From: Mugil cephalus
Lineage: Eukaryota > Chordata > Actinopteri > Mugiliformes > Mugilidae
Length of the DNA: 64,000 nt
Assembly: GCF_022458985.1 (NCBI RefSeq)
Contig: NC_061772.1
Coordinates: forward strand, 5,071,501-5,135,500
Direction: 5' to 3'
The notes under the pieces are model-generated. The model did not search any database and was not told the origin of the DNA. It worked only from the letters and a program-made list of their open reading frames with translations. Each line of letters opens with the position of its first letter. The first letter of the stretch is position 1. This document shows, one piece after another, positions 12,150-33,635 of this stretch. The position numbers and the translations under genes are program-made.

Positions 12150-12625
12150 ATACTACTTCAGCTATCAGGCTCCTCTCCTATGGAACCAGCTCCCACTTTG
12201 GGTTCAGGAAGCAGACCACCTTTAAGATTAGGCTTGAGACTTTCCTTTTTCATGAAGCTTATGGTTAGGACTGGACTGAACCATCTGTTATCATGCTGCT
12301 ATAGGTTGTGACATGATGCACTGAGCACCTATCCTCTACTCTCTTCTCTGATTTCTTCTTGTATGCATCAACTATACAGTACCGTGTGTCATGATCAGAT
12401 TCTTCATGTAAGCTTTCATGATGTCTGTATGTATATTTGTATCACAGATGTATGTTAGTCTTGTTCCACCTGCTGCCTTCTTCTCTGTCTTTTTCTGAGT
12501 TTTGAGCTGATTTCACTGCCACCTCAGTGCTTGATTTTGGGGTTTCAAGCTCTGGGTTCTGTAAGTGTCTTGAGACAATTTGTATTTTTAATGACGTTAT
12601 ATAAATACATTTGAATTGAACTTAA
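12150..12625 (+). mobile_element. LINE 3' end with relic of ORF C-terminus
   Basis: The frame at 12,150-12,225 reads YQAPLLWNQLPLWVQEADHL. This is the 'AP.LWN.LP..VR.A' motif found at the C-terminus of fish LINE reverse-transcriptase proteins. The 3' region follows and ends in 'gtcttgagacaatttgtatt' and an 'atataaatacatttgaattgaa' tail at about 12,565-12,625. The rest of the ORF is absent, as expected for a 5'-truncated insertion. Confidence 0.75.
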
Positions 12626-15600
12626 CTTGAACATGGGTTCATTTACAATGTAGCACTGCCATCTGCTGATCATAAAATATGTTCAAACTAATCTTGCCGA
12701 TGACTACTCGTGCTGCCAAGACATACGTGTTGGGGAGGGTAGGTTGTATTTGGGACAATTACGTCCCTTTGGCATATACACGGCAGAAAGAGAGAACACA
12801 CACAGGATATTCAACCACAATGCTTAAAAGCTACTAGTGCTAAAATGCAAGGCAGGGACAGTAATAAACTGCTGTTGATGTTAAAGCAGCCATACAGTTT
12901 ACAGAGCATATGACTCATATGACTGAATTAAAGTTGCTAATGCACGTATCTTGAAAAATGAACATAGTGTCTTAATAGTCTCTAATTCCCACTAGCCGCA
13001 CTACCAGCTGACAACAGGCAAAAAGGCTGATCTGAGAATAGTCCCAGATATGGAAGAGACTGGAGAGATGGTAGATCATTGTCGATAGTGATTGATTTAA
13101 ATGTTACAGGTTAGGGTGAGGCAGAGTGCCGTCTTGTTGAGGAAGATTTTCTCTTTTGATGTTCATGTGCAAAGTGGTTGTACTACAGTGAGTGGAGGTA
13201 TCATATTTGGTTACTGAATCTTTATTTAAAGAATTATCACCCTTTTTGAGTTATTTCAGCATATCGTTAGCCTAATAGCATAATTATAATGTCCCAAAGG
13301 ACGATGACGATGACGATGTGTTACAACCCAGCTCAGGTAAGGATAAGGGAATCAACATTAAAGTCAAGTGAAATAGGTTTTAGTTAAGATTTATTGTGAA
13401 ATTATATAGGTAACAGAAAGCACAGCACTAAGGCTGGACAAGGGGTGTTGAATAAATCAAAAAACATAGTAGAACGAAACAACACTACACAGTTAATCCA
13501 AGCCTTAGCTAAAAATAAGATCTCAAAAGAAAATCCTTTCTCCTTAACCAAAACAAAACATACAAATAAACAACACTAAAACATAAAAGTGCCTATACAA
13601 AGAGAATCTAGCTAGTGTGACCACAATTCTATGGTGAGCTACAGAGTCTGCTGGGTGGCAGGACAGCACAGGGCTGGCTGATTGAAGCAGCATGGCCCTA
13701 GCATCCCCCCACTCCCCACACACACAGCCGCCCAGACCTCCCCATCCTCTGTCCTGCAAGCATTTAACCTCTGACCAGCAGGGCCAATATTAACTCTTGA
13801 GTGATTCTTTCAGTTCAGCTGACTTCCCCTGGCTCAGGCCCTGAGAACATTCCTGTTCCATCAGTCAAAGAGTCTTGTCACACTGCTGACCTCCACCACA
13901 CACAGCCCTCACACCACCTTCTAGATAGCAACTTCTAGTAGTACTAGCTTACTGAGGTGTATTTTAGGAACTTGAAATGACCCATCTGATCACATAAGCG
14001 ACATGTTAAAAGGGCCTTTTCTCTACATTCAGGTTTAGCTGACTTTAAGGGGAAGAACCCATTTTCACTCCTGTCTCCAAACTCATTCCCACCGATAGCT
14101 TCATCCAGGAAAGCTGTAGCCAGCCTGCAGCTTCTTTTAAGAAACTGCTCCACGATGATGGTCTCTGTAATTTGATCTTTTGTCTTGGCATCAAGAGCCA
14201 TTCACTTGCCACTGAGCTTAACTTCCAAGCTTCCCTAAGGCTTAAGAGGTTAAAGGCCTTTCAATCCTCACCCTGTTGGAAGAGAAAGGATAGCTTTTTG
14301 TTAATTTTAACAACACACTGCATCCCATCTTTTTTTACCTTCACAAGGAAAGACGAAAGGTGATCACTCCTGGAAGATCAGCTGCTGTATATCGTGCAAC
14401 AGAGCCAGGAAATGTTTGAAATGTAGTCAAGGTCCAAACCAATCACAGTCAAGGATTCACAAAATGGCCATGGCAACATTAGCACATGAGGTATTACACA
14501 GGGACATCCGCCTGCATAACTGTACAAGTGACACAGATTAACAAAGAGCTGCATTAACAGAAGGGATCTTAACACACACTCACATACATTGTGCTTGTTG
14601 AACTGACAGATGCTATTGTCTCTGTTCTAACCTCCTGCATTTTCATGACCAAAACCCATTCTTTACATGGACTGTGTCTGCTATTTTGCTCCTCTTTCTT
14701 CTCACACAGCCTCCCATACACACAGCTTCACATTCCATCATACACATATGCTTGCCTGCTGGTGTGTGCTAGTGATAGGGATAAAGAGGTGACGATATAG
14801 ATAATGCTATAAATTAGGCACGGTTGTTAGTGGTGGTGGCCTCAGCACGGCACCTTGGGGAGCTCCCTGTAGCTTCATTGCACGTAAACGTAAACACTCA
14901 GAAAAAGTACAAGAAAGATAAAGTGAGGTTAAAGTAAAAAATTACAGAATTAGCATTATGAACAAATGTACAAAAAGTAGTTAGCAAAACAGTGCCCAAG
15001 GTGATGTGGTTGTTTGGCTAGTTGCATAGCAACAGCAGCATGGATCGTCTCGCATGGTGTTTCCTCGTCCTTGTCGCGACTGTTTGGAGGCACAAGGGAC
15101 ACCTACACAGTGGGTCATAATGTTATGCCTGATCAGTGTATACTCTGATAAAAAAACACATACTGTATAAGCCCAGCTAAGGACTGCAAAAACAATATTG
15201 TATTGCACTGGGTCAGCCTGGGTCAGGCTGTAGGTAGATGGTTCTTAATGCCCACTGCAGGTGGGACTGATTAGGGCAATTAAGTCCATGAAGGACTCAA
15301 ACCCCTTGAGCTGCCACTGCAAGGCTGTTAAGGGTGCAGAATGACGTAACAGCTTGTTCTGGCATTGTGCAACACTTTTTTGTTTCCACTTAACACACTG
15401 GGAAACATAAAGGGTATGTACATGGTTATGTATTAATATTCCCAAAGGTCTCTTATTGCAAGTTATATTAGAATGAAAGAACGATCAGATACCACCATGA
15501 CAATATGCAGAACAGCATTTTTATTTGTTTTAAATGCAAAAACTAATGCATCCAGCAAAAAATAAAATTAATGACATTCTATTATCAGTCTAAAAGGCCT

Positions 15601-18150
15601 AACATTAATACAGATGTTCACCAAGTTTCATCTAAATAATTTAGTTTGATGCTTTCCTTTTTGTACATTTTCAATATTTCAAAATATTTGTCTTTGTATG
15701 CAAATAATTTGACTGTGCAATGTTAATGCCAACATTTATTATTTCTGAATTAAATTACTGTAAAAAAAAGATTTATAAGAAATTATACTGTTACACATTA
15801 CTATATTTATGTAATATGTTCCCCTTTTTCATGTTGTATATTAACTTTCTTATGATACATCTTCCATTCATGATGTCCACTCATCTATAATACAATGATC
15901 ATCATCAGTGATGTAGTTTTCTGCCTCTGTGCTCCTGTTTATCCATTTAACAGTAACATTATGAGCACACTATATACTCACTCAGTTGTTTTATAACGAA
16001 TGCATTAATATCTGGTGATGTCTATCATTTTCAACATCTTCATTTTCAGTGAATAAGCAAGTATCATGCGGCCTCCTTGCATCATCTGTGTGTGGTATGC
16101 TGCATTATGCTTTATCCAGGTACATAAGGTTGAGATGCTTGCTTCTGACTCTGTTGACTTATTTTGAAAGTGAGGAATCTTGCATGAAACAGTGTCAACA
16201 TGATGGAAAAAGTACGAAAAATTGGATTTGGGGTTTGAACAAATCAAGGGGGTATTTGTGATTTACTGAGTATGTAGGTCTTTTGCACAAAAACCACTTA
16301 CATATTGTCTTAGTTTTTTACATAAGCATCATTCTACATTACAATACAACGTAAAACCATGGTTCTCTTTTTCTGGAACAAGCACACATGCAGTGGGATG
16401 CATGCGCAGATTTAACAGAGGTTTACATGCAAAATTATATTTAAATTCCATTGAAATTGTAATTGTCTATTAAAACACATACACACATACATAATTGTTG
16501 AATTTAATTGTTAACACTAACTAAAGATTCCTTTATATCTTTGAAACTTTTGTTGATTTGTGAATAAGTGGATGCATATATGCCTATAGTAGGAAGTAGG
16601 GCCAACTGTGAATAAGTCTGAGATTAATTATCTTGATGGTGGATGCACAGTCTAGTCAACAGTGGTCAACCGGAACTAGATGCCATCCAAAAATAAAATA
16701 AAGAGATCTGGGTTAGATGCGGAGTGGACTCTGATGAGCTGGAAATGAGTTTACTACCACAACAGGGCAGCAAGCCGGAGGCCACGGGGCTGGTGGGCTG
16801 CAGTATTGTGTTGGGGGCAACTGTCTGCTCTGACCTATTGTCTGGATGAGCGTGACTGTCTCTGAGACAAAAGAAGCACCTGCCTGATCATCCACACACA
16901 TATAGTGGTCTGCCATGTGTCTGACACAGGGGCTTGTGTGTATGTGTGTCTGTCTGTATGCACACTAAAATCATGGGTATTGCCAGGAGAGTGCTGTGTG
17001 TATAGTGTGTAGTTGAGCCTTGTGCGTTGGGGGTGGGAGGGTTCACCCTGGGGGTCAGTTTGGCGGGAACGTGAGGCTTGTTGATCATACATATGTCCAG
17101 CAGTGTACCAGACTGTGTGCTACAGAAAACACACAAGCTCATTCACACATTTGTGAGGAAGAGAAAGGCAGCATTTTGGACTTGTTCCTTAATTAACAAC
17201 AGATCAATCTTTCCATTTCTGTGTGTGTCCATGTGTGCACTGAAACATCTGTTGTCGTGTTAACAGCTACCACAGTTAAAGAGGGTCTCTGTTGATCCAA
17301 CCAGTCAGCCATAATCATCCAGAAAGGCATAGGCAGACTCACTCGGGTCCTGTTCACACCTGGCATTAACATGCGCATTGTGGAATCTGATTATAAGTGG
17401 GCAGCTGTAAGTGTTCACACCTTGCACTACAATGTGTTTCAATATACATATACCAAACAGTCCCTTAGGATTTACTCATCCACGTTAGCCCCTGATGTTG
17501 GTTTGTTCAGAGAGCCACAAAGTTCAGATCATAACTTGAACCGTGGATGCATTCAGATGCAGGAGAATGTCCCTGCTGCACTGTTTGCTGTCTTAAAAGT
17601 GCAAGAACCTTGGCTAAAAAAAAAAAAGTCTGGACATAGAAGTATAACATTAACTTAATTCCACTTGGCTACTTTACAGACATCACCATGAGGCATCATC
17701 ATTTATAAAACATTACTCACTTAGCAAATGTCCGCAGCTAATGATTGGTAGCTTTAATTCTGGAGGATTCATGCAGCTGGTAACACTGCTGGTACAGACA
17801 ATGCATCCCATTTTCACATCATTGTCAAAAATACAGTAGCATGCTGAATCCTAATTGACAGCTTTCTCTCAAACACCACTTCTACAGTGCTCAAACTGGA
17901 CCTTCTCAGTCTGAAGTTGCAATCTTCGGCCTCACTTTACTTCAGCGATAAAACACTATTTAATCACCAGTGTTGACTGATCTCTGGTCAAGTAATTTTA
18001 CTTGAAAAAGACATTTTAATTACTGTTTCATGCTACATGAAAGATGGAAAAAACAAGTTTAAATTATCTGTTGGGATGCTTTGTTCAACTTTGATGTAAA
18101 CTGACAACATATCTATACAGAGAGCTCCCAGCATGGAGACCCAAGGCAAC
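12626..18150. other. Intergenic DNA, no gene seen
   Basis: Only repeat fragments could be picked out. 15,085-15,145 matches the dispersed repeat at 51,290-51,360 (shared 'ctgtttggaggcacaaggga' and 'cataatgttatgcctgat'-like ends). 15,500-15,850 is strongly AT-rich. 13,290-13,320 carries a short GACGAT run. 17,340-17,430 has repeated 'gttcacacct' motifs suggestive of an old DNA element. Confidence 0.5.
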
Positions 18151-18194
18151 TGCTAAAGTTAGCTAGCTAACATGAACTCGCTAGCTATCTAGGT

Positions 18195-18221
18195 CATTAG
18201 TTAACATTAAGTTAACTAATG
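18195..18221. repeat. 11-bp perfect inverted repeat
   Basis: Arms cattagttaac (18195-18205) and gttaactaatg (18211-18221) flank a 5-nt spacer. The surrounding 100 bp is rich in GCTAGC/GTTAAC-type palindromes, including gttagctagctaac just upstream. Confidence 0.8.
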
Positions 18222-20000
18222 TTAGTTAGGCACTAATATCACCTTACCTAATCTTGCTAGCTCAGCGTTAACTAGGTAGATATCACTATTACTTTAGCTC
18301 ATTCTAGCCTTACCTTGGAGCAGAGGTATGTATGCTTGTTTATTTTCTTGAGATTAAGCTGGGAGTGGGGCCTCCCACACTTTTTGATCCGCTTAAGGCG
18401 TCACTGCTGTTGTGTTTTCGGTTTCAGGAAGAACGCAACTTCCCCAGTCAAACTCTTATTGTACCTAGTGTCGGACTTACATGTGCTACACACACCGCTT
18501 CACCATTTTGCTTGTTGGGGGTCTGCAGCTTGATAGACTTTGTTTACAAAGCAACAGTTGCCAAGATATATGATTGGACGATGAGGTTTGGGGGCGGAGT
18601 TTTGTTAAAGTTCAGTTGATAGATAGGCCCAGTTCTGTTTGTTCTGTCAACATGTATGATTTTGCTTTATATTTTGATTCATTTTAAATGAGCAAGGTTT
18701 ATATAAAACTAATCCAATAAACCATGCAAAATGAAAAGGCAAGTGTAAGTGTATGCTTGTCCAATGTATGGTTGTCCAGACACACTTGATCAACTGAGTC
18801 CACAAGAACTCAAGGTTACGCAGGATTTAGCCCTGTCATTGGCCCTGTTAAATCTGTTAAATCAAGTGAAAATAAAGTGCACATCCATCACCAAAAAACA
18901 ATACCCCCGACATTATCTTGCTAAGCAGAGAAATCTCAAATCTAGGGCTTAGACAATCAACACTGCTAATGTGAGTTAATGCTATGAAGCTGAACTAAAG
19001 CTAAATGAAGTTGGGATGAGCTTATTGAATTATGTAGAGACTTTTCGACAGGAGACATAACTAAGAGACATTTGTGTCAAACTGTAAAAGGCTGGACTGG
19101 GACACACATAGTGGGCTTGTGTGTGTATGTGTGTAGACAAACATGTATATATATATATTGCAAATGTGACGTATTGTTCTTTGTGACATTTATTTTGTGA
19201 TTGTCTTTTGATATACAAAATTTTGAATATTTAAACTGTACATATACAAAAACACCATTTAAATCACCTAGTGTGAGTTACTTGATATCAACTCAAATTT
19301 GATAAAAGGAGAATATCATAACATTATATAATATTCTTAAAAACTGAAACAATATACTGTAGTATAGGTACCAACTCATTTATTTATTTGTGTTATTTGG
19401 TCAAATTTAAAAGCAAAAAATAAAAAAATAAAAATACATTAATACATTAAGCGTGCCACAGTCCTGGCCCATAGTACTATAACACGCAAATTATTTAAAC
19501 TTCTGAGTAGTTACATGGGACAGGTGTTACATTTGGGTTTTCTTTTGTGCATGTGAGTGAATGACTGAGCGTAACAATGGGAATGCATCTGAGGACTCAC
19601 TACAAAGTATGTGTTGTTAAAGCAATAACTGATTGTCACCTCATCTTTAAGCATAGTCATCTGAATCACAGTTTTCTCTGAGGGTAATATGATATGGTTG
19701 TGGTTAAATAGAAGAGAACAGCCAGGCCTCTAGATGATCATGTCACAGCAGCTGTAATATTAATATTACTTGACCGTTCATGTATTTTTTGGGTATTCAT
19801 GTATTTTTTTACTTGGGCATTCATACATTCATGTTTGATTTTTTTTCAAGACTGGTGTAGAAAAGTAAAGCAGACCAAAGGTTCATTACAGTAACAGGAG
19901 AAAATGTGAGTAGTTACTTCCTCCCTACAGTGTCTGTGTGTGTGCATGTGCCGGTGTCCTCTTTATTTTGATAACAATGATTGCTCTGTGGAGGGCTGCT
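18222..20000. other. Intergenic DNA, no gene seen
   Basis: AT-rich, with short TG and TA runs around 19,110-19,160. No gene could be supported. Confidence 0.6.
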
Positions 20001-20015
20001 CCACTTCAACCCCTG

Positions 20016-20345
20016 ATAGAGAGATACAGGGAGAGGGAGGGAGCAGGAACAGAGACAGCATGGAAAAAGTGAGGACTTATTTGCGGAGTGTGCCTCGCAC
20101 CCTCTTGTGGGCGCTCCCTCTGCTCTCCTCCGGTTGTCTCTTTCTCCTCTCTTCTCTCTCTTCTCTCATTCCTTTCTTCTAAGCCACTCTGATGTAATCC
20201 AAAAGCCTCCGCAGGAGCAGCTGCACAGCGAACCAGCCCCAGCTCCCTCCCTCTCCCTTTCTCTAAATGTCTTTCTCTCTTTTCTTTGCACTTCCAGAGG
20301 CATGCAATGGGCAAAGTGAGGGAGAGGAGGGCCCTCAGAAACAAT
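20016..20345. other. Purine/pyrimidine-biased block, possible non-coding exon or regulatory DNA
   Basis: A GAGAGGGAGGGAGCAGGAAC-type purine stretch is followed by long CTCTC/TTCTCTC pyrimidine tracts, with a few CpGs. Its composition is unlike the AT-rich flanks. Overlapping frames of up to 112 codons arise from the low-complexity sequence and I do not call them genes. It could be a 5' exon or promoter of a transcript not otherwise visible. Confidence 0.3.
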
Positions 20346-22077
20346 TGGGGTCTTTTTCTGCCCTGAAAAAAGGGGGCTATCGCCTCACATCTCCTTCTGT
20401 AGCCCCTCTACTGTAATATACTCCAGGTGGGTGGCTGCAGGGGCACAGTGTCTTGGTCTGCTGTTAGTATAAGAAGACAACTGCAAATACTGGAGCCAGA
20501 CAGAGGATTTAGCTGCAGACAAATAGCAATGGCTTTAAAAAGGCTCATGTACAAAACCAAACTCAATACATATCTTAAGTTGAACTCAAGTAATCAGTAT
20601 CCCAAAGCCAATCAAAACATCAGTGACAGTAACACCCTGCTCTCTGCAATGTTAGTACACGTCTAAAACTCTCTAAAACTCACTTTCAATTACTCCTCAC
20701 ATTAAAGTAGCACTGGAGAGATTAGTGTGTAGAGTGTAGTTCAAAAATCTTTCTGGTGATCTTTGTTAGGGGTGTGTAGTTCACAAAGATTGTTGCGATC
20801 TTCCCTGTTCTCAGATAATTTCAAAGCCAGCAAGAAACTCTTAATTTTGCCCAAACAGTTCTGTCTTTAATGTATTTTTTTTTTCTTTATTGCAGGCCTG
20901 GTCTTTTTGGAAAATCAGTGACGCCATTAGTGGGAGCTATGAGACCTCTAGTGTGTTCAAAACCATGTATTGACTATTGTCTTGTAGGACTAACAGATGC
21001 ACGTTTGCTTCTAAACTTCTGAAAGAGTGTGGGACTTAACTTCCAGTTGTTGTTGAAGGAACTTGAAACTGTATATCAGACAAGTGGCATTGATCTGTGC
21101 CACTGGGATGTGCAACACTCACACCCAGCTCTGACAAATAGCTTTGATATGTGTTGTTTTCTTGCTATTCTATACTATCAGTCTTTACAAGAATATGCCT
21201 TTTTTTGTCAACAGCAAACCAAGAGAAGCAAGCTTTGCCACACTGAGCACTGCTCTGCAAGGAGGGGAGGGGCCTTGTTTCTGCCCTAAAAGTTGCAAGA
21301 TGGAATCAAGCTCTACTGTAGTTGTACTCCCAGTTTTCTGTGTAGTTCCATGAAGCGTGGCCCAAGAAGGGGACATCTCACTAGTGGTAAATGTCCCAAC
21401 CTCAATTGTAGCTGTTCAGTCAGACTTCACTAATCAAGTGTTCATAAGCAGTCCACAGGTACCAGACCAGCAGACTGTACATGTGCCTGGCATGATCAAA
21501 ATACCGTAATGAGAATGGAGTAACCACTTCAGTGAATTAGATTACATGATTGTATAATTCAAAATATAGAAAATAATCAATTCATTCACTATGTTGACAG
21601 TTCATGGCCTGACCATGTGGTTAGTTTGTTACATAAGTAAAAAGAAACCTGTTTTGACTGTAGTTGCACAATGACAGTAGTACCAGCAACATTTATTAGC
21701 GGTTGAATGAGGTAGAGGGCTGTGATCCTTTTTACCCTTCTGTGTGTAACTAACTAAAAACCCTAACAAACCTAACTTTTGGTTTGTGCCAGCTAGCCTA
21801 TACAGTTTCCTTTTTGGGTGGTGTTCCATGCTGGTTCCCTCACACCTTCCACCTTCAAACACACTGCATCACACTGGACAAATGTTCTAGCGGGATCAAG
21901 CTTCTGTTGTCATTACGGCACCTAGTTAAAGGTCCAGTCAAACCGCCTTCATGTGTCTTGTGAGGAACTCGCCATGGGGTCACTTTTGCTGATAGCTAGT
22001 TGTATTGCTCATCTTTGTAGAACAGGAAATTGGAGCCTCCCCTCTGAATATGTCGATGTATTTAAGGACTGTTTGAA
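20346..22077. other. Intergenic DNA, no gene seen
   Basis: No supported coding region or recognisable repeat. Confidence 0.55.
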
Positions 22078-22130
22078 GCCTGAGTCTGTGACCCTAATAG
22101 TACTTGACTATAAGGGTCACAGACTCAGGC
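22078..22130. repeat. 18-bp perfect inverted repeat (hairpin)
   Basis: gcctgagtctgtgaccct (22078-22095) is perfectly complementary to agggtcacagactcaggc (22113-22130). Inside the spacer, atagt and actat can pair again. Outside, three or four more pairs form beyond one mismatch. The predicted stem-loop is about 60 nt, resembling a small hairpin RNA or a collapsed inverted-repeat element. It lies about 50 bp upstream of a LINE-type tail. Confidence 0.85.
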
Positions 22131-22175
22131 TGCAAGCAATTGTGTACAGAATAATTGTGAAAGCTGTGTTAATGC

Positions 22176-22245
22176 TTGCTCCTGGGGGTTCAGACTGGGT
22201 TCTGTTATTGGTGCTATATAAATAAAATTGAACTGAATTGGATTA
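22176..22245 (+). mobile_element. LINE/SINE 3' tail fragment
   Basis: Contains 'cagactgggttctgttattg' followed by a 'gctatataaataaaattgaa' tail, the terminal signature of the fish LINE family also present at 12,600 and 27,500. Confidence 0.7.
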
Positions 22246-25200
22246 AAATCCATCATGCTATGATGTCTATTGTGACCCTTCCAAGACACAAATACTTACA
22301 CAAACACGAACACACAGTCTATTTTCTATCACTCACAAGACATAACTGTGTAACTGTGTGACATAATTGAAGAATTTTGTGACAATGAAGCCTACAGGGA
22401 CTAATTGGGCAGGCTTTTCAAAACAAAAGCCCTAAACTACTTTTTAGAAGTCACCAGAAAGTGTTGATGTGTGCCAGATTGTCCACTATCTACGTTTCTA
22501 ACAATTAAAGTAGCATTTTTTAATATGGTTCCACGTGATGTTAGGGTGTGGAATACATTTAACAGTTTAGACAGCTTGTTTTTGTTGTTGTTGCTGCAGA
22601 GAGAAGAAGAAGCAGTCTGGAGAGATGCAGATGCTGCAGTAGCATTAGGTCTGCAAGATGATACATCCAGCAGGGACCATACAGAGACCGACAAGAGCAG
22701 GTGGTGCCTTAGCTCAAACTACACCAATCTCAAACCGAACCATTCTGCTGACGTGAATTTGGCTGTGCACATTGTGCGTGTTAATTTTGTGTCTGTTGGA
22801 TGCTGTAGTCTATGCCAGGACCAAGGGAGATCATGTGTGTTTGTGCCGTACAACGCACAAAAATGTCTCTCATCACTTAGACAGAGGTCTGTTGGCAACT
22901 TGCTTGAAAGCCTCCAAAACCGTTAAAACCAGCAAGGCTTGGCTGTTGTTACTTTTGCCGTTTAATCCAACTGGCCACCAAAGTTACAGTTATAAGCTAA
23001 GTTGATGACAGATGGCAACACTAAACTTTTTAATATACACTATTTGGATTACACACTTCCAGTGTTATTCAATTTATGGTGTTTTTTGCCTGTGTTCTGA
23101 GGGAACAGTCACATGATGTCATTTACATTTTGGACTCTGACATGTTTGAAGCACACGCCCACCTACCCACCACTTGTACATGCATTGCAGTACTGGCTTT
23201 GTGAATAGGGCAACTCAGAAATCTCTGTTTCTTTGTCACACACAGGGAATGTTTGCTTAATTTGACTGTAATCACCATTAACAGTGATGGATATTCACAA
23301 AAAGTTCTTAACCTCTAAATTTGCTTTGGATACAGATCAGATCCTTTCCTGGGGAAGACTCAAAGGTCCTGTTGTGGCAAAATGGATTTGGCATTTGAAC
23401 TTGTGCATCTTCAATAAAGTATAATGTTCGTGTTTGCCTGCCACTCAGATCATTTCCATGTTGGATGTTACAAGCACAAGCCAAGATGAAACTTTATAGC
23501 TCGACAGCTAATCCTGCTTTGACGAATGAAAAACCACTTCAGGTTTGATATGTTATGTTTATACACTAGACTCGGCTCCTGTAGGGGTTACAGAGGTGCA
23601 TTTATTTAAAAGGCTATGAGCAGGTTTGACAATATGCAGGAGGTGGTACTGTCACTCATATGTGACTATCATACATTTCTTTGACATTGACCAAATGGCA
23701 AAATCGCAAATGATGTCCTGTGCTTCCATCTACTGGTGGAAATGCTTTAACATAGTTTGATGGTGAAATCTGCAAGTACCATATTATGTAAATGCTCTTA
23801 CGGAAAAAATAAATGAATTAAATCAGGACACTCACCACCAACATAAAACAAAGTATAAGAGTTAAGAACTCCTGAGTACTCCAATAAGAACAGTACCATC
23901 AAGAACAAGACAAAGAGTGCGCAGCCAACAAACCTGAGCACAGGAAGGACTGGATTTGTATTTTATGGTTGTTGCTTCCACACAAGTCTTGCTGTTTGAC
24001 CAGCAGTTTCAGGCCCTGGATTCTGTGTCTAGAGACAGTTATAATTGTTATATGGAAATAAAACTAAAGCACCACTACAAACCTCAGTGCAATACTACTG
24101 ACCGGTTCTGTGATAAAGTTTGCTCCGAGTTTATAACATACAACACTAAGCTTTAAAATACTGGATTTTTTTTAAAGCTTTTATTTCTGGTTGTCCTGGA
24201 CTGTTCTTGCAGGACCACTCAAATAACAAGTGGCATGGTCTACATTATCACTGTTGGGAATTATCCAAACTAATGAGATATTACCAAGGAATTTGGCATG
24301 GTAAGAGAGCATCCTCAGGTTCATGGCAAAGGGACCTACATATAGGGCAGCTGGCAAACCTCAGACTGGACGTACAACTAGGCCAAAGCTATTCATGCAG
24401 AAATCAACCACATGATAATAGTCAGTGGATTGGCCCACCGTTCCAAAACTCCATTATCTGCCATTTGAATTTACTGAATTAAATGTGGTGCTTATTTAAA
24501 TACTTATTTACACCTTGTCTCCGGACTTTTAGAGATTTAAATTTACAGTCAATACAGACAATAGTGTCTAGTAATTGTAACTGAAGAGGCCTTTACCAAG
24601 CTTAACACTATTTATGATGATTGAAATCAAATTCTCCAAGAGTGCTGTTGAGTACAAAAATGACATTAATGTTAGATCAGCAAATACATAGTGACTTCTT
24701 GTCTGATTACTTAAGTATGTGTAATAACAGCATCCATAAGCATAAAGATTTTTGCTGAAATACAGGAAAGAAAGGATGATGGGGTGCTGGTGACCAACCA
24801 CTGCAGTTGTGAGGAAGAGACATCTGTGCTCCTTGGCAAACCATTGCTTCACACTCCCATCTACTGGCAAAAACCTGCTACGTCAGACCAGTTAGTCCCT
24901 TTCACACCCACATTTGTCATGCAGACAGACAAATATATATTTTCGGCAGGAAAAATAAAATACAGAAACCTTCTCAAATTGGTGAACACATCAAAACTAA
25001 ATAAATGACATCTACAAATATGTGATCACTCTTAAATGGGCATCACACACTCGCACAAATGAGTAGTTGCGATTCTTGAAAGTGTTTGCTCTCAGATCCA
25101 CTGAACCATACCCTCTAAAACTGAAGACTTGCTCCAAAAGGGAGCTGGATGTGATGTGTCTCAGGCCTCTTAGTGTTTACACACAGACATTTTTAAATGA

Positions 25201-25749
25201 CATAGCATGCACATCACTCACTTTCCTTTGTCATAAAGTGCCAATAGAACCTTAAACTCACAAGGTGGAGTATGGTGTACTCATTGTTTGCCAACATGGC
25301 CTATGTCATTATGGAGACGTTTGAGAGCACTGAATCTGAAAGGGAAGAGTAACTGCCTGAGTCCATTCACCTGTAAAGGAGAGCATGTTTGAGGTACAGC
25401 CTCGAGAATGAGCTTTTGGGTGGTGCCGTTTTGCAAATTTTATCAGTTAATTTCTCAAATGCTCCTTCACCTGACCTTCTTGCTAACTGACACGGTAACA
25501 TCAGTCCTTGTCTGGCAAGCTGGTTTAGAGTTAAACTAAACTAAACCTCAGTAGGTACAGTAGGAGCGTTTGTTGCCAACCTTTACAGCATGGCCTCCAC
25601 CAATCTTACATTTAATTCTGTAGTCAGCAGGTCACCCCTGAAACCTCCCCTGACCCTTTTTTGGAAGAGGCTCTACAGTCAGACCCTGGGTATTTCAATG
25701 TAGATACATTATTCCACATGCCATCTGGTTTGTGCTTAGTGGAATCATG
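22246..25749. other. Intergenic DNA, no gene seen
   Basis: A 151-codon open frame (22,471-22,926) has no recognisable domain. A weak LINE-tail-like fragment (ggattctgtgtctagagaca, then a 'tatatggaaataaaac' end) lies at about 24,017-24,064. Confidence 0.5.
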
Positions 25750-25839
25750 ATTGTTTTTTCAAGGACAATGACCCCGATGACAGTCTATGGGTGATTACAA
25801 CTAAAAGTGCATTTTCACTAATGCTACACAAGTACACAG

Positions 25840-26010
25840 CTACACTGGTATTGTACTGCAACAGAGAAAGTGGTCCAATCACGTGACAGAGAATATAAAC
25901 TTCCCAAACTTCTCAGACCACTGAATGTGCTCAGTGATCTGGCATCTGGTCAGTAGTGGCAATCTTGACGGTCTCCATTCTGTAAAGGTCATTAGACCTA
26001 GAAGGAGAGT
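25840..26010. repeat. Diverged repeat, copy 1 (pair with 29,265-29,385)
   Basis: This copy and 29,265-29,385 share, in order, 'gattacaacta', 'gtgacagagaatataaactt' (one change), 'ctcagt.atctg', 'tctggtcag.agtggcaatc' and 'cattctgt'. The divergence implies an old dispersed element with no open frame. Confidence 0.6.
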
Positions 26011-26959
26011 GATGGAGGGCTGCTACAAATGACCGGAGCTCCACAATCAAATGACCTGGGATGAGTTGGACCAACAAGCCAACAAACGCTCAAGACATGT
26101 AGGAACTACTGTTGGAGATGACAGGAATGAGAGAATGTGTGCAAAGCTCTCACTGAAGCAGCGAGTGCAATCTAAATCATAAAACATGATTAGTTTGTGA
26201 GCACATAAAACACGCTAATGCAATCTCGGAAACGAACTTTGACCTTACAGTAATTACTACTCTATGAATACCATTTTAGATTTTATCAGATGTTTCATTG
26301 ACCATAATTCAAACATTGTGGTTGTTGTAAGTTTAAAGAGACAGACATATCTTTATTGTGTCATTGGCTCAGCTTGTAAGAATGTACAAGTTATACATAA
26401 CCATCCAGGTTTTGAATGTGATGCCTTGTCAACAGTGTGGCAATCCAAATTTGATGAAGTCTTTTAAAGTGCATTTTATTGTTAGATTAGGCCATTTAAA
26501 ATAAATCCAGTATTTAAACACATATTATACTCACTGACCATACACTCAATGTAGTCATCTGTACAAATGTTGTGGCAATTTTTTATGTGAAACATGGCTT
26601 TGTTCAGCTTTGTAGACCTGTATTTATGTTATATAATATACAGTATACTTTATATATTTTATACAGAAGACCAAAGTCAAGAGGTCCATGAACAGTGCAG
26701 GCTTTTGGAGAAGCTGTTAGATGAAATGCCAAATCAGAAACACATCATTGTGTTTGTGAACAGTGCATGTTTTTAGCTCCTTGCTGATATAAAGCTTGAA
26801 ATATTCTTTGCGGTATGGCAGGCTGTGATATGGCAGAGGTGTCATTCAGTTTTAGGTCATACAATCTATATTTATTTTGCTCAGTAGATCTACTAAACAA
26901 AATGCATTGCATGATTTTCACCATTTAATGATATACTCTCTCTGGATGGCATTACTGTG

Positions 26960-27535
26960 GCCAACTTTGATTTGATCAGGATATGTCCTTTAATTCTCAC
27001 ATAAAGCAAGTGACCAAGAATGCTTTCTTTCACCAGTGTAATATTGTTAAAATTGTGCTCCTGATCTGCAGAGCACTGTACTACTCATGTGTGGTCCTGG
27101 TCTCATCAACCTGTCCAGTCTGTCAATGCGCCATTCTCCAAGCTGCTTATGATACCTCTTATATTCAATCATTAGCAACTAAACTACTATTGTCACTAAC
27201 ACATTTTTTTTTATCATCATTATCAATCTCTCATGTAGCACCAGGTATATCTAGATCAGATTCTACATGTAAGTCAGACATGTGTTTATCTCGTTCCTCC
27301 TGCTGTTCTCTTCTCCCTCTTTTTCCATCTCTACCCAGCCGGTCTCAGGCAGATGGGTCCCTCCATATAATTTGGGTTCTGCTCAAGATTTTTTCTTTTG
27401 CCTGTTAAAAGATAAGTTTTTCTTGCCACCATTGCCTTAGTCCTTGCTGGGGGTATTAGGCTGGGTTCTGTAAAGCATCTTAAGACAGTTGGTATTGTTG
27501 TTGATGTCATATGAATAAAATTGCATTCAATTCAC
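26960..27535 (+). mobile_element. LINE remnant: RT C-terminal piece plus 3' end
   Basis: The frame from 26,983 begins MSFNSHIKQVTKNAFFHQCN, matching the conserved 'LSF..HI..VTK.AFFHLRNI' stretch downstream of the RT domain in L2-type fish LINEs. After a decayed portion the sequence runs into the family's 3' region: 'tgggttctgctcaagatttt', 'ctgttaaaagataagttttt', 'gctgggttctgtaaagcatc' and an 'atgaataaaattgcattcaa' tail. Frameshifts and missing parts show it is dead. Confidence 0.75.
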
Positions 27536-27599
27536 TGTAGTCCTGTTTATCTTCTGACCTGACGTCCCGCTCCCTGAGCGGTGGCCTCACTTCATTGTC

Positions 27600-27930
27600 T
27601 ATCTATGGCATTTGGTTGGGAAACAACATCATTGTCCTCCATGTTGTCACATTTGCTGTGCAGGAATGAATGTATCCTGCATCTTCCTCCAGATCTTCTC
27701 CCTCTGCCTCTTCCCTTCCCTACCACTCTGTTATCAAAGCAGTCCTGCAGTTTCGAGGTGACTTCCACAAACCACAACTGGACCATTCTCACTGGTGGTT
27801 TTACTCTGCAGATCCTGGGTCTGCAGGTTGGGATCAGAGTGAGTGAAATATGTTCTGGTAGTCCTAGCACATATGACTGGCAATAGAGTTCAGTTGGTGT
27901 AGACAAACAGAAAAGAAGTGCACAAGTGTT
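27600..27930 (-). mobile_element. Decayed LINE ORF fragment, minus strand
   Basis: The minus-strand frame (27,592-27,933) contains LIPTCRPRICRVKPPVRMVQ then LW and KLQDCF. This resembles the linker between endonuclease and reverse transcriptase in fish LINEs (an 'L.P.YR.....KP..R.V..W......LQDCF' pattern). Start, catalytic residues and most of the protein are missing. Confidence 0.55.
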
Positions 27931-27954
27931 CATTTGTCAGCTTTAACTGCAAAT

Positions 27955-28012
27955 GTCCACACTGTGGGATGAATAAAGGATTATCTTGTCTAATCTTATC
28001 TTATCAACATAG
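27955..28012 (+). mobile_element. Retroelement tail (ATCTT)n
   Basis: A 'gggatgaataaaggattatc' sequence followed by iterated 'ttatc' units, a typical non-LTR 3' tail. Confidence 0.6.
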
Positions 28013-28307
28013 CATTCACTTGTTCTTGTATTTAAACAGAAATGAAGTTACAAAGGTTATTTACATCTCCGCACCTCTGCTATAACAATAAACTGTTAAG
28101 TGTTATAGCTCGTTGGCCCTGCTTGCAGACTGTTGACCGTGAAGTTACGTACCTTCACAAACAGAAAAGCCAAGGTTACTATGACTAAACAGTAACCAGG
28201 CATCGGGTCAAAGACCTGAAATGTTACTGTGTGAACTTTGTTTAAAGACCATGCAACGCTTTTGTTGAGACTTACTTTCCTATTAGGATGTGGAGATGGT
28301 GCAACTC

Positions 28308-28335
28308 AAACAAACAAACAAACAAACAAACAAAC
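28308..28335. repeat. (AAAC)n tetranucleotide repeat
   Basis: Seven uninterrupted CAAA units. Confidence 0.95.
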
Positions 28336-30387
28336 ACAATGAGCTCCCAGAAATAACACTTTTAACTAATTCATTAATTTGAATGAATTTGCTTAAAATG
28401 TCACACAGTCTCAGTTTTATTACAGAAGGGAGTAATGACATGATGTGCAGACTCCTCCCTGTGAACTTTAGAAAGCTCTTCCTCGTGCAGCTTTCACTGT
28501 ATTGAGCATTCGAACGCTCCCTCCTTCTCATTGCAACTAGAACCGAAACAACACAGAAGTGAGTACACTAATTAAGTTTTTCGTTTGTGTGTATGTGTGT
28601 GTGTATGTGTGCGTTTAAATCAGTAAACTCTTGTGGAGCAGTACTTCTCTGGGGTCATATTTGCAATGAGGCTTGCAGCTGATTCTTAAATTCTTATTTC
28701 ACATGTGCTCAGCTCTTTTACGGGAGGGGACCGTATCTTACAGCCTGATAGGTTAGCACTGTACAGTAGAATGATGGAATAGAACAGTGCAATACGCACA
28801 GTATGAACGAGTGTTCATATGTTCTTATGTAGTAGCAGGCTGGTTTATAGAAGACACACACAGTTATCACCATGCTTATTCTTTGTCCTTTTACACTGAA
28901 AAGTGACTTTCGTGACTCACGTGACTCACATCTCTTGCCCGTGACTTTTCATTTATTTTCCTCTTGGCAAGCTGGAGCCCTTATTACTCCTTCTACCAGT
29001 GACTGTTTTACACAAAGGTTTATCAACTAAATGGCTCAGTTTCCAGAGAAAATGAATGAATAGCACAGCAGTAACTTTCCCATACCCTCAGCAATGCCAC
29101 AGTGAGACACAGTCAGGAGGAACTACCGAAACCCAGGAAGTACAAAAATGACTGTGTGGGATCAAGATTTCCACAGGAAATAATAACTAATATAACTGAA
29201 AAAATATGAAATTCACAAAAACTCAACAAAATGATAAATAAATGTTACAATTTGGAAATGGATGATTACAACTAAGTGATCCAACCACGTGACATAGAAT
29301 ATAAACTTCTCAAACTGCATGTGTTCAGTGGTCTGACTTCTGGTCAGAAGTGGCAATCTTTACAGTCTTCATTCTGTCCTTTCCTGCAGCTGTAAATGGT
29401 GACCGCAGATGTGTTTATGAACCTCTAACCGAGCACAGCTTTGGAATATCTCAGCAGACGCAGACACACTTTGTTACCACATTTGGTGAGAGATAGCTAA
29501 TTCACATACTGACTTAATAATTTATTGACACTACTTTGGAAGTCAGGAGCTCAAGTAGATGCTAGCTACACAGTTAAGCTCCTTCTCCATATCCGGCAGT
29601 TTAGGTGTAGCACAGTGTGCTCTCCATCTAGATTAAAGGGCTGTGAGCATTCAATGCTAGAACCACAGAGAAGCGATTACAGGCTCCAGTGAGTCAATAG
29701 CTGAACCTCGCTGGACGAGGTTGGTTGATTGCTGATTAGTTGAAAGGTTGGCCTGCTGCATCGATGCAGTTACTTTTCCCTTGTGGCCAGTTCCTCTCAT
29801 CCCTCAGTCAGGCTCACCTCTACGCACTCATCCACTGCTTTCCTCCTTTTCAGACTGTTGGTCTCAGTCCGCCCTTTTGGGAGTCCTGATTGTCCATTAA
29901 AATCTGGTAATATCGAAAATCTGGTGCATTGACCATTGGGGCGACCATTGCTCAGTAGTTGCTGGTGTGTGAATGTGTGTCTACTTGTGTGAGCGAATTT
30001 GTAGATGCACCTGTGAATGTACCAATTAATAGACAGAAAGATGCTTTGTACAAGCAACACCATTCAGTGTGGGAATGTTAACCAGCTTGCATGCAATGAA
30101 ACACGGGAGTCTAAAGCGCACCGAGCAATAAATACAAGACCATTTACAGTTTAAACTGTTAAATAGCAGCCAATCCCTGCATCAGCCCTGTCACCGAGCA
30201 GCTGTGAAGATGAAAAGAAAAGTACTGCTAGAAGGACAGTGTTACAAGGAACTGCTGGAAATAGAATGCTGAATAACATTTCTTCAAACCATTACTTCTT
30301 ATAGGTTTTACTGATGTTATAATAATACATTTTCAGTCCTGATTCAGTGATTGGAATGTAACAACTTTATGGGGTTTGTCTGTGAAA
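28336..30387. other. Upstream region of the Ost-beta-like gene
   Basis: No coding region is supported. A possible non-coding exon ends at 28,558 before a strong donor (GTGAGT at 28,559). 29,265-29,385 is copy 2 of the diverged repeat at 25,840-26,010. 29,934-29,960 (ccattggggcgaccattgct...) resembles the head of a fish SINE. Confidence 0.4.
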
Positions 30388-30411
30388 TGACGTCTCAGGA
30401 AAGCTATAAAA
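30388..30411 (+). promoter_or_regulatory. Candidate core promoter: CRE-like site and TATA box
   Basis: tgacgtct (30388-30395), one change from a CRE consensus half-palindrome, is followed by tataaaa at 30405-30411. This is about 265 bp upstream of the start codon at 30,673. A polypyrimidine-AG (ccttttcag) directly precedes that start codon, so a spliced 5' leader is also possible. Confidence 0.35.
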
Positions 30412-30672
30412 CAGCATAGTTTATGCATAGCGCGAGGTTCAGTGTGAGCGAGTTTATGTGTGATGTAGTCTCTCCAATAGTCTATTTTCTTGAGTGTGGA
30501 AATATCTTTGTTGTTTAGTATGGTTTTGTTCACATTTGATCCTCATTTTGTTTTGTGTCTCTTGTCACAATATATATTTAACTACCGAAAATGTGACAAG
30601 CAAATGCTTGGAAGAAGAGAGTTGTTTCATGACGTTGTGGTTTCTAAAACGATGCTCTTTCCCTTTTCAGAT

Positions 30673-33448
30673 ATGTTTGACGTGTCAGTACTATTGCTTC
30701 TCCTTCTGACAGGTAAATTAATGGCTCATTCAGACACAGACACAGCTGATTTTTATACATTTACATCTATGACTCTAAAGCTTTCTCACTGACACTTCCA
30801 GGGGCGAGGGCATTCATGATTCAGAACGCCCACAACAACCTGTGTTTGGAGGACTCAGCAGATACAGGGAAACTCATGCTCAACGAGTGCAGCTTGGACT
30901 CAGATTCTCAGCAGTGGATGTGGACGGATCAGGGCAGGCTGATGTGTGTTGGTTCTTCCAGATGTCTGTGGGCCCAGCAGAGAGAGACACCCCAGACCAG
31001 GTCCTGTCATGGGCAAGACGACGTTGCCGAAGGCTTAATGTGGGACTATGACGGGGAGACACTGATCAGCAGAAATAAGACACTGCTGCTGTCAGTCAGA
31101 GGTCAGGATCTGGTTCTCACGCGACATGTCAAACGTTCAAAGTGGAGACTTCTGGATGAGGGAGACGAAAGACTCCGTAAGTCTCATTTAGGATTATTTA
31201 ATCCTAATATTTGGATTATTTTGTTTCTATACTTCACAGTTATTCTAACACAATTAAACTGGATTAAAATGCATTCATGCACAGTAGAAAAGAGGTTTAT
31301 ATTAGTAACCTGTCTGTTTTACTGTCTCCATGTGGCCCAAAAGATACATAATAAATATACAGTATGTATATAAATATATCCGACAGAAAACAAAATGATG
31401 ATGATGTGTTCTGCTCTTTAGGACTCAGGAGGGGATCTGATTACTCAGAGTACACAGACGAAGAAGAAGAAAAAGTGACAGAGGGACAGGGAGGCATGAC
31501 AGAGGAGCAGAGAGAGTATTTGCGCTGGTACTACCGCACAGAGGATCGTAAGTGCTGCTCCTGAAAAAATACATCCTCCCAGAAGTGTTTCTCTTAATTA
31601 TTTAGAACGTATCAGGATGTGCGGTTGTAGGTACAGTAGATGCCAATTATGGATGCTGTCCGACAGAGGTCATGAGTTTTTAAACCAACACTTTACCTAC
31701 TTTTAAACTACACTTTTATGGTACCCATGTAAACCTATAGGTCCACACTCCCTGGACTGCTTCGAGGATTGTTGCATTTCTCTTCAATACTGACAACAGC
31801 TAAAGAAATCTCCAGTGTTGAGACTGAATACTGCCTGGGATCTGACTCTAGATGCCGCTAGCTTCAAATAAATAACTGAGTTCCCTCAGCTGTCAGAGTG
31901 TTACTTCAACTGTGGATCTTTAGCTAAGTAGATTTGCGAGTCCTTTGCTTTCTTCATCCCCGTTCCTTAACACACAAACTTAGAAGCACTCATTTTAGAT
32001 TTTAGATGCATTTACCCATCCACATAACAGTAAAACTGCCTTGAACTGAAGATGATCATATGCATCTTTGACCATGTACTTATTAGTAAAACTCCCTTAC
32101 AGTCAAAAGTGAACTTGTGCACCAGCCAAAATCTTTTCTACGTTGCAAAGGCAGTTGGCAGGTTTAACTTCTGAATTGGGCTCTCTTTAATAATAACAAA
32201 TGTTGAGTGGTGGCAGAAACTGATAATAATGCGGACCTGAGCACAGACGGATTCAGGTTGCTGGTATTAGCAGACATCAAGGAGACAGCTCCTTTATGCT
32301 TCTTACGAGAGGTTTCTTATGGAAAACATGCTTCTATACTGTTGAGACTGAAATTGTGACCAGGAGCCTGTAGTAAGTAACACAAACTTGGCACTTTGAA
32401 GTCGCTATCCAAATGCAATAATAGTAATAATAATATGGAACCAAATTAATGTTGATCTGTTTGACAAGTGCTTTGTGAACATAATTTTCATTGACCTCTC
32501 AGCTATTATGTGTTGTGATTTGTGATATTAGAACAAAGATCAAACCCATTTTATTTAGCATTATGATCTTTTCATAGTAGATTTTTACTGAGCTCACTCC
32601 TTTAGGATTAGGTGCTCGTATTTCTGGAGCTACCATAAAGGGAATCTTCCTCTCTTCAACACAAGGGCCTCTGGTCACATGCTGCACTCCGATTCTGATA
32701 ATTTTATGATATCTTAGTATACACAGTTCAAAAGTAATAAAAATTGTAGCAATATAATAAAAAAATCAGGACATCTTCCAGCAATATTGAAATTGCCCTA
32801 AAGGAGGGGGCCAACACTGTTGCTGAATCTGGTAGGAAAAAATCATTCCCTTTGGTGAGGCGTCTTCCCACTGGAGAAACCGTCCGTGTCAACCCATCTG
32901 TTAAATGGAATGAGTTATTCTCTGAGCTGTTCAGTTACTCAGTGCTTTATTCAGCTCTGTCTCGTTGCAGCCACCATATGGAAGTTCGTGCTGCTGGGAC
33001 TGTCCTTTATCTGTCTTCTTGTTGGTTTTCTGCTGCTGGGAATCGGAACCGTGGCCAACAAGTATGACCTGAAGTTATACCACAATCAACATACATACCA
33101 TATGTGCGAGTACGCTGAGTGACACACTTCTCCTGTCTTAATTCCAACAGGAGCAGGAAGAAGATAGCAAAGTACAAGGCAGCAGCATCTCTGGCTAAGA
33201 AAAACGAAGGTGAGGAGATGCAGGCTATTACACCGCTCAGGGACACCACCACACCCACACTTCCACGATCAGACTGGCAGCTACAAGAAAGACAGTCCTC
33301 TGTGTCCAGCAGCCCCCTCAAAGCAGGAAACATCTCAGTCACATGGAAAGATGGTAATACCTCCTACCTGTACACAGTTCCTGCAGAGGAGGAAAAACAG
33401 GAGCATGAGCAGGAAGAGGTGTCCACGTTTCAGGAGGAGGGTCAGTGA
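30673..33448 (+). CDS. slc51b: Lectin-like beta-trefoil / Ost-beta (SLC51B-like) fusion membrane protein
   Basis: Coding exons are 30673-30712, 30802-31176, 31422-31547, 32971-33061 and 33151-33448, giving 309 aa. Residues 1-17 are a signal peptide ending ARA. Residues 18-131 resemble the N-terminal Cys-rich (ricin-B-fold) domain of mannose-receptor proteins: FMIQN start, LCLED, a QQW motif at 50-52, MCVGSSRCLW at 61-70, SKWRLL end, five cysteines and a sequon at N105. An acidic linker (144-170) leads to EYLRWYYRTED, a transmembrane helix (about 186-208) and basic KSRKKIAKYK, the layout of Ost-beta. A 98-residue Ser/Glu-rich cytosolic tail follows. Ost-beta pairs with Ost-alpha (SLC51A) for basolateral bile-acid and steroid export. 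Its neighbours ubap1l, pdcd7 and spg21 match the human SLC51B locus. The symbol is by synteny and topology; transport function is inferred. Confidence 0.8.
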
Positions 33449-33629: not shown

Positions 33630-33635
33630 ATTAAA
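33630..33635 (+). other. Candidate poly(A) signal (ATTAAA) for the Ost-beta-like gene
   Basis: The ATTAAA variant lies about 180 nt beyond the stop codon. It is the first plausible signal seen downstream. Confidence 0.4.

Follow-up and report, generated by a model that had tools for sequence, protein, structure and literature searches.

A probable slc51b gene of the mullet Mugil cephalus with an additional N-terminal domain of the mannose-receptor Cys-rich type

On the + strand of the mullet Mugil cephalus genome, a gene model of five exons at 30673–33448 encodes, in frame, a 309-residue protein in which a signal peptide, an R-type lectin domain and an Ost-beta-like transporter subunit follow one another. 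The window, i.e. the whole stretch of DNA analyzed, is 64,000 nucleotides long (C3:5071501–5135500; assembly of 634.8 Mb in 24 contigs), and positions are those of the window unless a contig is named. The model was rebuilt from the sequence; its exons and associated features are as follows.

30655..30670, + strand: very strong splice acceptor ending two bases upstream of the ATG (score 12.61, splice-site weight matrix)
30673..30712, + strand: exon 1, start codon and signal peptide, residues 1–14 (frame; donor CAG/GTAAAT)
30802..31176, + strand: exon 2, whole R-type/CysR beta-trefoil domain by Pfam, PDB matches and phases
31074..31082, + strand: N-glycosylation sequon N105-K-T, in the lectin domain (motif scan)
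31176..31432, + strand: furin-type site R139-L-R-R142/G143 (RLRLRR/GS), by motif and split codon
31422..31547, + strand: exon 3, acidic linker (to residue 163) and juxtamembrane motif ending LRWYYRTED (frame; OSTbeta profile)
32971..33061, + strand: exon 4, single transmembrane helix, residues 182–208 at 32973–33053 (hydropathy; OSTbeta profile)
33151..33448, + strand: exon 5, basic R213-K-K patch (33155–33163), cytosolic tail and stop (frame; OSTbeta profile to residue 279)
33630..33635, + strand: ATTAAA, a polyadenylation-signal variant 3' of the stop (motif scan)

The frame is closed by a stop codon at 33448, all four introns are GT-AG, and the cumulative phases are 1, 1, 1 and 2, confirming the five-exon model first drawn in an earlier note on this DNA. 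Splice sites were scored with a splice-site weight matrix and ranked against every GT or AG on the + strand of the window. On this scale, the four donors lie between the 91st and 99th percentiles and the four internal acceptors between the 95th and 99th. The coding parts have a GC content of 0.52 versus 0.38 for the introns overall, and by codon position the coding values are 0.55, 0.41 and 0.59 (positions 1, 2 and 3). By the same matrix, the acceptor at 30655–30670 is among the strongest of the window, with a percentile printed as 100.0th among + strand AG. Because it ends only two bases before the ATG, an unmapped 5' exon probably precedes the model. Inspection by eye of the signal peptide gave a hydrophobic core (VLLLLLL) and a likely cleavage point after ARA, at residue 17.

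The surroundings of the gene are consistent with the SLC51B locus, where the earlier note had placed it. Ten downstream frames were scanned against Pfam; two matched PDCD7, two matched SHCBP_N, five had no match, and the remaining one, an SPG21-like frame, had a sub-threshold match to Abhydrolase_1 (0.0057). By eye, a UBAP1L-like gene comes before PDCD7, and the SPG21-like gene lies between PDCD7 and SHCBP. The human order is presumably SLC51B, RASL12, KBTBD13, UBAP1L, PDCD7, in which case nearness to PDCD7 is common to both species; it is this order, together with the PDCD7 and SHCBP matches, that bears out the placement. In the upstream frames (+ strand, 10801–30602; − strand, 901–30602), no Pfam family was matched at E 0.1, and RASL12 and KBTBD13, the upstream neighbors expected from the human order, were not found among them. 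The 64-kb window holds no second convincing OST-beta-like or CysR-like copy. Counts of FXR-type IR-1 sites (10 in the window versus 7.7 expected) gave no signal, and a TATA-like scan returned 9 matches in the window versus 7.4 expected.

To assign the N-terminal half, we relied on profile searches and on sequence searches of solved structures. In a Pfam scan of the 309-residue protein, Ricin_B_lectin matched residues 18–116 (E 1.8e-9, above the curated cut-off) and CysR_MRC2_N matched residues 17–133 (E 5.6e-9; 36.3 bits versus a cut-off of 27), with the profile match spanning almost the whole CysR domain. Lectin residues 18–131 correspond to 30813–31154, all within exon 2, and the same exon was recovered at 37.7 bits when the genome was searched with a CysR profile. 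Among solved structures (phmmer, PDB), the lectin half matched the CysR domain of the yolk-sac IgY receptor at 2.6e-7 and that of the mannose receptor at about 1e-3. Both Pfam matches and the PDB matches thus bear out the proposal of a beta-trefoil resembling the mannose-receptor Cys-rich domain. By profile, the domain would be classed as an R-type (ricin B) lectin, with sugar binding putative. Relatives of the lectin exon were absent from viral and prokaryote collections (exon-2 query only), as expected for a fish gene. A single-sequence structure model of the lectin exon alone had a mean pLDDT of 38 and was discarded.

For the C-terminal half, OSTbeta (PF15048) matched residues 164–279 (E 4.1e-14; 53.2 bits versus a curated cut-off of 27), so that profile searches of both halves returned the families foreseen for them, ricin-B/R-type and OSTbeta, all above cut-off. 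A solved OST-beta chain was matched at 2.5e-6 (phmmer, PDB), and the residues common to the two include W174, R177, E179, D180, W184 and L202-L203-G204. Hydropathy reaches 2.84 over 19 residues in the one transmembrane helix, and the basic stop-transfer patch is R213-K214-K215. The protein therefore resembles SLC51B/OST-beta (PF15048; 9ljg_B, 9unv_B) in its W..R.ED...W motif, one helix, RKK patch and a tail matched to residue 279. The Ost-beta-like motif, single helix and basic patch that had been read by eye hold up against the profile, the hydropathy and R213-K-K. To our knowledge, human OST-beta has a short N-terminus and no lectin domain, whereas ∼160 extracellular residues precede the helix in the mullet protein. 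In mouse Ost-beta, the RKK patch is reported to be necessary for topology (PMC5942847). From the signal peptide, helix and patch, the mullet protein is predicted to have its N-terminus outside and RKK on the cytosolic flank.

One clear difference from human OST-beta lies in the N-terminal acidic dileucine motif, ELLEE, which is described as essential for human alpha–beta association and as conserved in eight species (PMC4924846). The dileucine is absent from the mullet protein, where the aligned place reads EQREY. Skate Ost-beta is described as lacking the LL motif in PMC5942847, and reports differ on the skate LL; given the report for skate, the dileucine may not define the OST-beta family. 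We think it likely that the fused protein serves as the beta subunit of the exporter.

When the protein is cut apart, each half keeps its own Pfam families, and the occurrence of both matches in one spliced frame is not accounted for by chance. Even so, a modelling error could in principle have joined two adjoining genes, one for a secreted lectin that stops within intron 2 and another for Ost-beta. The exon-2 frame does continue into intron 2 before it reaches a stop, and an AATAAA lies in that intron at 31350. However, the lectin and Ost-beta parts are only 245 bases apart; the donor that closes exon 2, GTAAGT, has the phase seen in other CysR exons of the genome; exon 3 opens at a strong acceptor in the matching phase; and the exon 2/3 joint completes a multibasic linker motif. 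We consider two separate genes highly improbable. The fusion proposed earlier is supported by two independent profile families, by the splice structure and by exon phase, and the fused gene is very probably real.

The exon-2 frame is open to 31373 (a 207-aa open frame), and 31177–31373 has a hydrophobic stretch. A lectin-only product made by intronic polyadenylation at the AATAAA (31350) is conceivable, but the arrangement may be due to chance.

A different possibility is that the lectin exon behaves as a cassette, or is bypassed by an alternative start, such that the main product is an ordinary Ost-beta and the lectin transcript is a minor isoform. With a length of 375 nt and phase 1 at both ends, exon 2 can be skipped in frame, which results in a protein of 184 aa. 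Alternatively, a start at Met164 in exon 3, which sits directly before the conserved Ost-beta part, would yield 146 aa. Against this, exon 2 has good splice sites by the weight matrix, its skipping would remove the ARA cleavage site and leave the product with a short hydrophobic N-terminus (by eye), and intron 2 has no match in the TATA-like scan of the window, the only promoter search made there. We regard such a minor-isoform role for the lectin transcript as rather unlikely, and continue with the lectin-bearing subunit as the preferred reading.

Exon phase provides a view of the lectin exon's origin. Across the genome, the CysR profile matched 15 places, six of them above cut-off, with the slc51b lectin exon among the six. 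Eight (L001–L008, L005 being the slc51b gene) were used for phases and alignment, and the weaker L009–L015 were dropped as chance. All seven of the other CysR exons enter in phase 1, as judged from the acceptor at the domain start, chosen where several were printed. A scanned donor at the domain end is in phase 1 in four of these seven (L001–L004). The donor scan was empty for L006 and L007, and the only GT for L008, in phase 0 and inside the domain, was set aside; for L004 and L005, further donors were also printed. The slc51b lectin exon is phase 1 in and phase 1 out, like other CysR exons. This shared phase 1-1 structure points to exon shuffling, and it links slc51b to the mannose-receptor family independently of profile scores. 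Apparently, the lectin exon was gained ready-made from a gene of mannose-receptor type. A tree built from 10 CysR domains puts slc51b on a long branch without a resolved position; as to the mannose-receptor gene that gave the exon, BLAST bits favor the IgY-receptor type (48.5), followed by MRC1 (40.8).

The domain agrees with the CysR domains of MRC1, MRC2/Endo180, PLA2R1/IgY receptor and LY75 (PF24562) in its near-whole-domain match, its phase 1-1 exon and its first disulfide. Three disulfides are given for the Endo180 CysR (PMC4635314). Our alignment retains pair one (C28, C43); the second is uncertain, with C82 three residues from the usual place. Unlike the mannose-receptor CysR, the slc51b domain lacks the third disulfide, both partners being missing together, and has an extra cysteine, C62. 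FN2 and C-type lectin domains, which belong to the mannose receptor protein family, are absent among the eight Pfam families listed for the slc51b protein.

The earlier note had raised recognition of sulfated ligands as a speculative use of the domain. In the mannose receptor, 4-SO4-GalNAc is described as stacking on Trp117, and Endo180, with Ser at that place, as leaving sulfated sugars unbound (PMC4635314). In the slc51b domain, this pocket Trp is replaced by Arg125. The region of the NRQ loop near Trp117, which we take to be a sulfate contact in the mannose receptor, is mostly gap in the alignment, whereas an MRC1-like exon of the same fish (L003) keeps both the Trp and an NRN loop. Because Trp117 is replaced and the sulfate-contact loop is mostly gapped, the MRC1 binding mechanism is unexpected here, and the suggestion of sulfated-ligand recognition is unsupported. 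A true sulfate or sulfo-sugar site, catching sulfated bile alcohols or conjugates beside the exporter, would be in keeping with a fold family that contains the sulfate-binding mannose-receptor domain. But besides the altered residues, and the Endo180 precedent for loss of binding, such a domain would face the side to which the substrate is exported, and we hold out very little prospect for it. Our reading remains that the domain is, by alignment and profile, a CysR family member in which the sulfate-binding mechanism of MRC1 is not expected.

Other CysR exons lie close together in this genome. On C3, the chromosome that carries slc51b, L002 and L004 (24.06 and 24.09 Mb) are 26 kb apart; L002 groups with the IgY receptor (support 87/90), and, going by the human arrangement, the two may be the PLA2R1 and LY75 pair. 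On C7 (11.55–11.59 Mb), three closely similar CysR exons, L006, L007 and L008, fall within 40 kb. These are MRC1-like in the tree, lack ∼13 residues as well as the first repeat's second Cys, and have no Trp at the Trp117 place. Possibly, they represent an expanded fish mannose-receptor branch.

At the boundary between lectin and linker lies a furin-type site that the earlier note omitted, and its presence there means that the lectin may not stay attached. RLRR142/G143 is the only RX[KR]R motif of the protein and has a further Arg at P6. The codon of the P4 residue, R139, is divided between exon 2 (31176) and exon 3 (31422–31423), and hence only splicing of the two exons creates the site. An RX[KR]R motif occurred somewhere in the ectodomain in 15.6% of shuffles and within the 12-residue boundary stretch in 0.8%, one caveat being that this stretch was chosen after the site had been seen. 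The predicted cut after R142 leaves 167 residues. Skate Ost-beta has 182 residues. Human OST-beta has 128 aa (PMC4924846), and the predicted 167-residue product is near the known Ost-beta sizes. As judged from the motif, cleavage may turn the precursor into a secreted lectin plus an Ost-beta of ordinary length. Just beyond the site, six acidic residues lie within five positions of Y149, a context that resembles tyrosine sulfation sites, and Y146 has three acidic and two basic; sulfation is predicted at both. A tentative proposal is that furin splits the pre-pro-protein in the Golgi, so that an R-type lectin is secreted and the Ost-beta of ordinary length begins with an acidic stretch sulfated on tyrosines Y146 and Y149; we consider this possible but less likely than not.

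An Ost-beta would require a partner, and a candidate was found on another chromosome. A Solute_trans_a exon on C1 (L028; C1:23201881–23203776, near 23.20 Mb) matches solved OST-alpha at E 0.003, whereas three other Solute_trans_a loci that we tried gave no match to solved OST-alpha. As the only locus among those tried to match, C1 L028 is likely slc51a (Ost-alpha). Whole-protein BLAST of the genome found no second OST-beta-like gene, with the caveat that a diverged copy with short exons could escape; the same search recovered four of the five slc51b exons, missing only the 14-residue exon 1, along with two weak CysR matches. A genome search with PF15048 gave no matches at E 0.001. At E up to 10 there were six weak matches, and since slc51b's own locus was not among the six, this search says little about paralogues. 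The best of them, on C7, falls at an eef1d-like gene on the other strand (by eye) and was taken as chance, and the frames listed for another, L046, included nothing convincing.

The spliced frame, both family memberships, the topology signals and the exon phases are read from the sequence itself. On balance, we favor, with reasonable confidence, an slc51b gene, encoding the beta subunit of the steroid and bile-acid exporter Ost-alpha/Ost-beta, that has an extra extracellular N-terminal CysR domain, with a history and a mode of working as follows. A symmetrical phase 1-1 CysR exon would have come between the signal-peptide exon and the Ost-beta exons, an insertion that would keep both the reading frame and the outward topology in one step. 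The signal peptide would take the trefoil domain into the ER lumen, and the single helix and RKK patch would set the Ost-beta orientation and allow pairing with Ost-alpha. The complex would then reach the basolateral membrane and present the trefoil domain on its outer face, connected through the acidic linker. A furin-like protease may act in the Golgi, cutting at RLRR142/G143; cleaved molecules would release the trefoil and keep an Ost-beta chain of 167 residues, and uncut ones would retain a tethered trefoil domain. Most likely, the domain makes contacts with proteins or glycans at the cell surface that serve assembly, retention or dimerisation, and does not act as a trap for sulfated substrate.

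Partial parallels exist. SLC3 proteins (4F2hc, rBAT) are ancillary subunits of heteromeric amino-acid transporters with type II topology and a glucosidase-like ectodomain. The likeness is in working only, a one-helix partner with a large ectodomain on a multi-helix transporter; the SLC3 subunits belong to unrelated families, and the comparison makes no membership claim. In the Clonorchis sinensis OST, alpha-like and beta-like parts are reported to be fused together (PMC5942847). Like the mullet gene, this is a gene fusion involving an Ost-beta-like part; it differs in that it joins alpha-like to beta-like, and the passages on it in PMC5942847 name no lectin. A lectin-bearing Ost-beta architecture was not found in the literature searched, which is a weak negative, as that literature covers few subscription papers, and the architecture may already sit unremarked in the automatic annotation of fish proteins.

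Our analysis describes a known transporter subunit with a new arrangement of domains and suggests that the exporter has an unrecognised outer module. If true, the gene would link a transporter with a module of mannose-receptor type, and it would offer an easily testable case of a transporter subunit gaining a domain by way of a single symmetrical exon. If the precursor is indeed cut, the same epithelial cells would couple assembly of the exporter to release of a lectin in fixed proportion. Attached or cleaved off, the folded outer domain of a natural Ost-beta would show the range of variation of that part of the protein.
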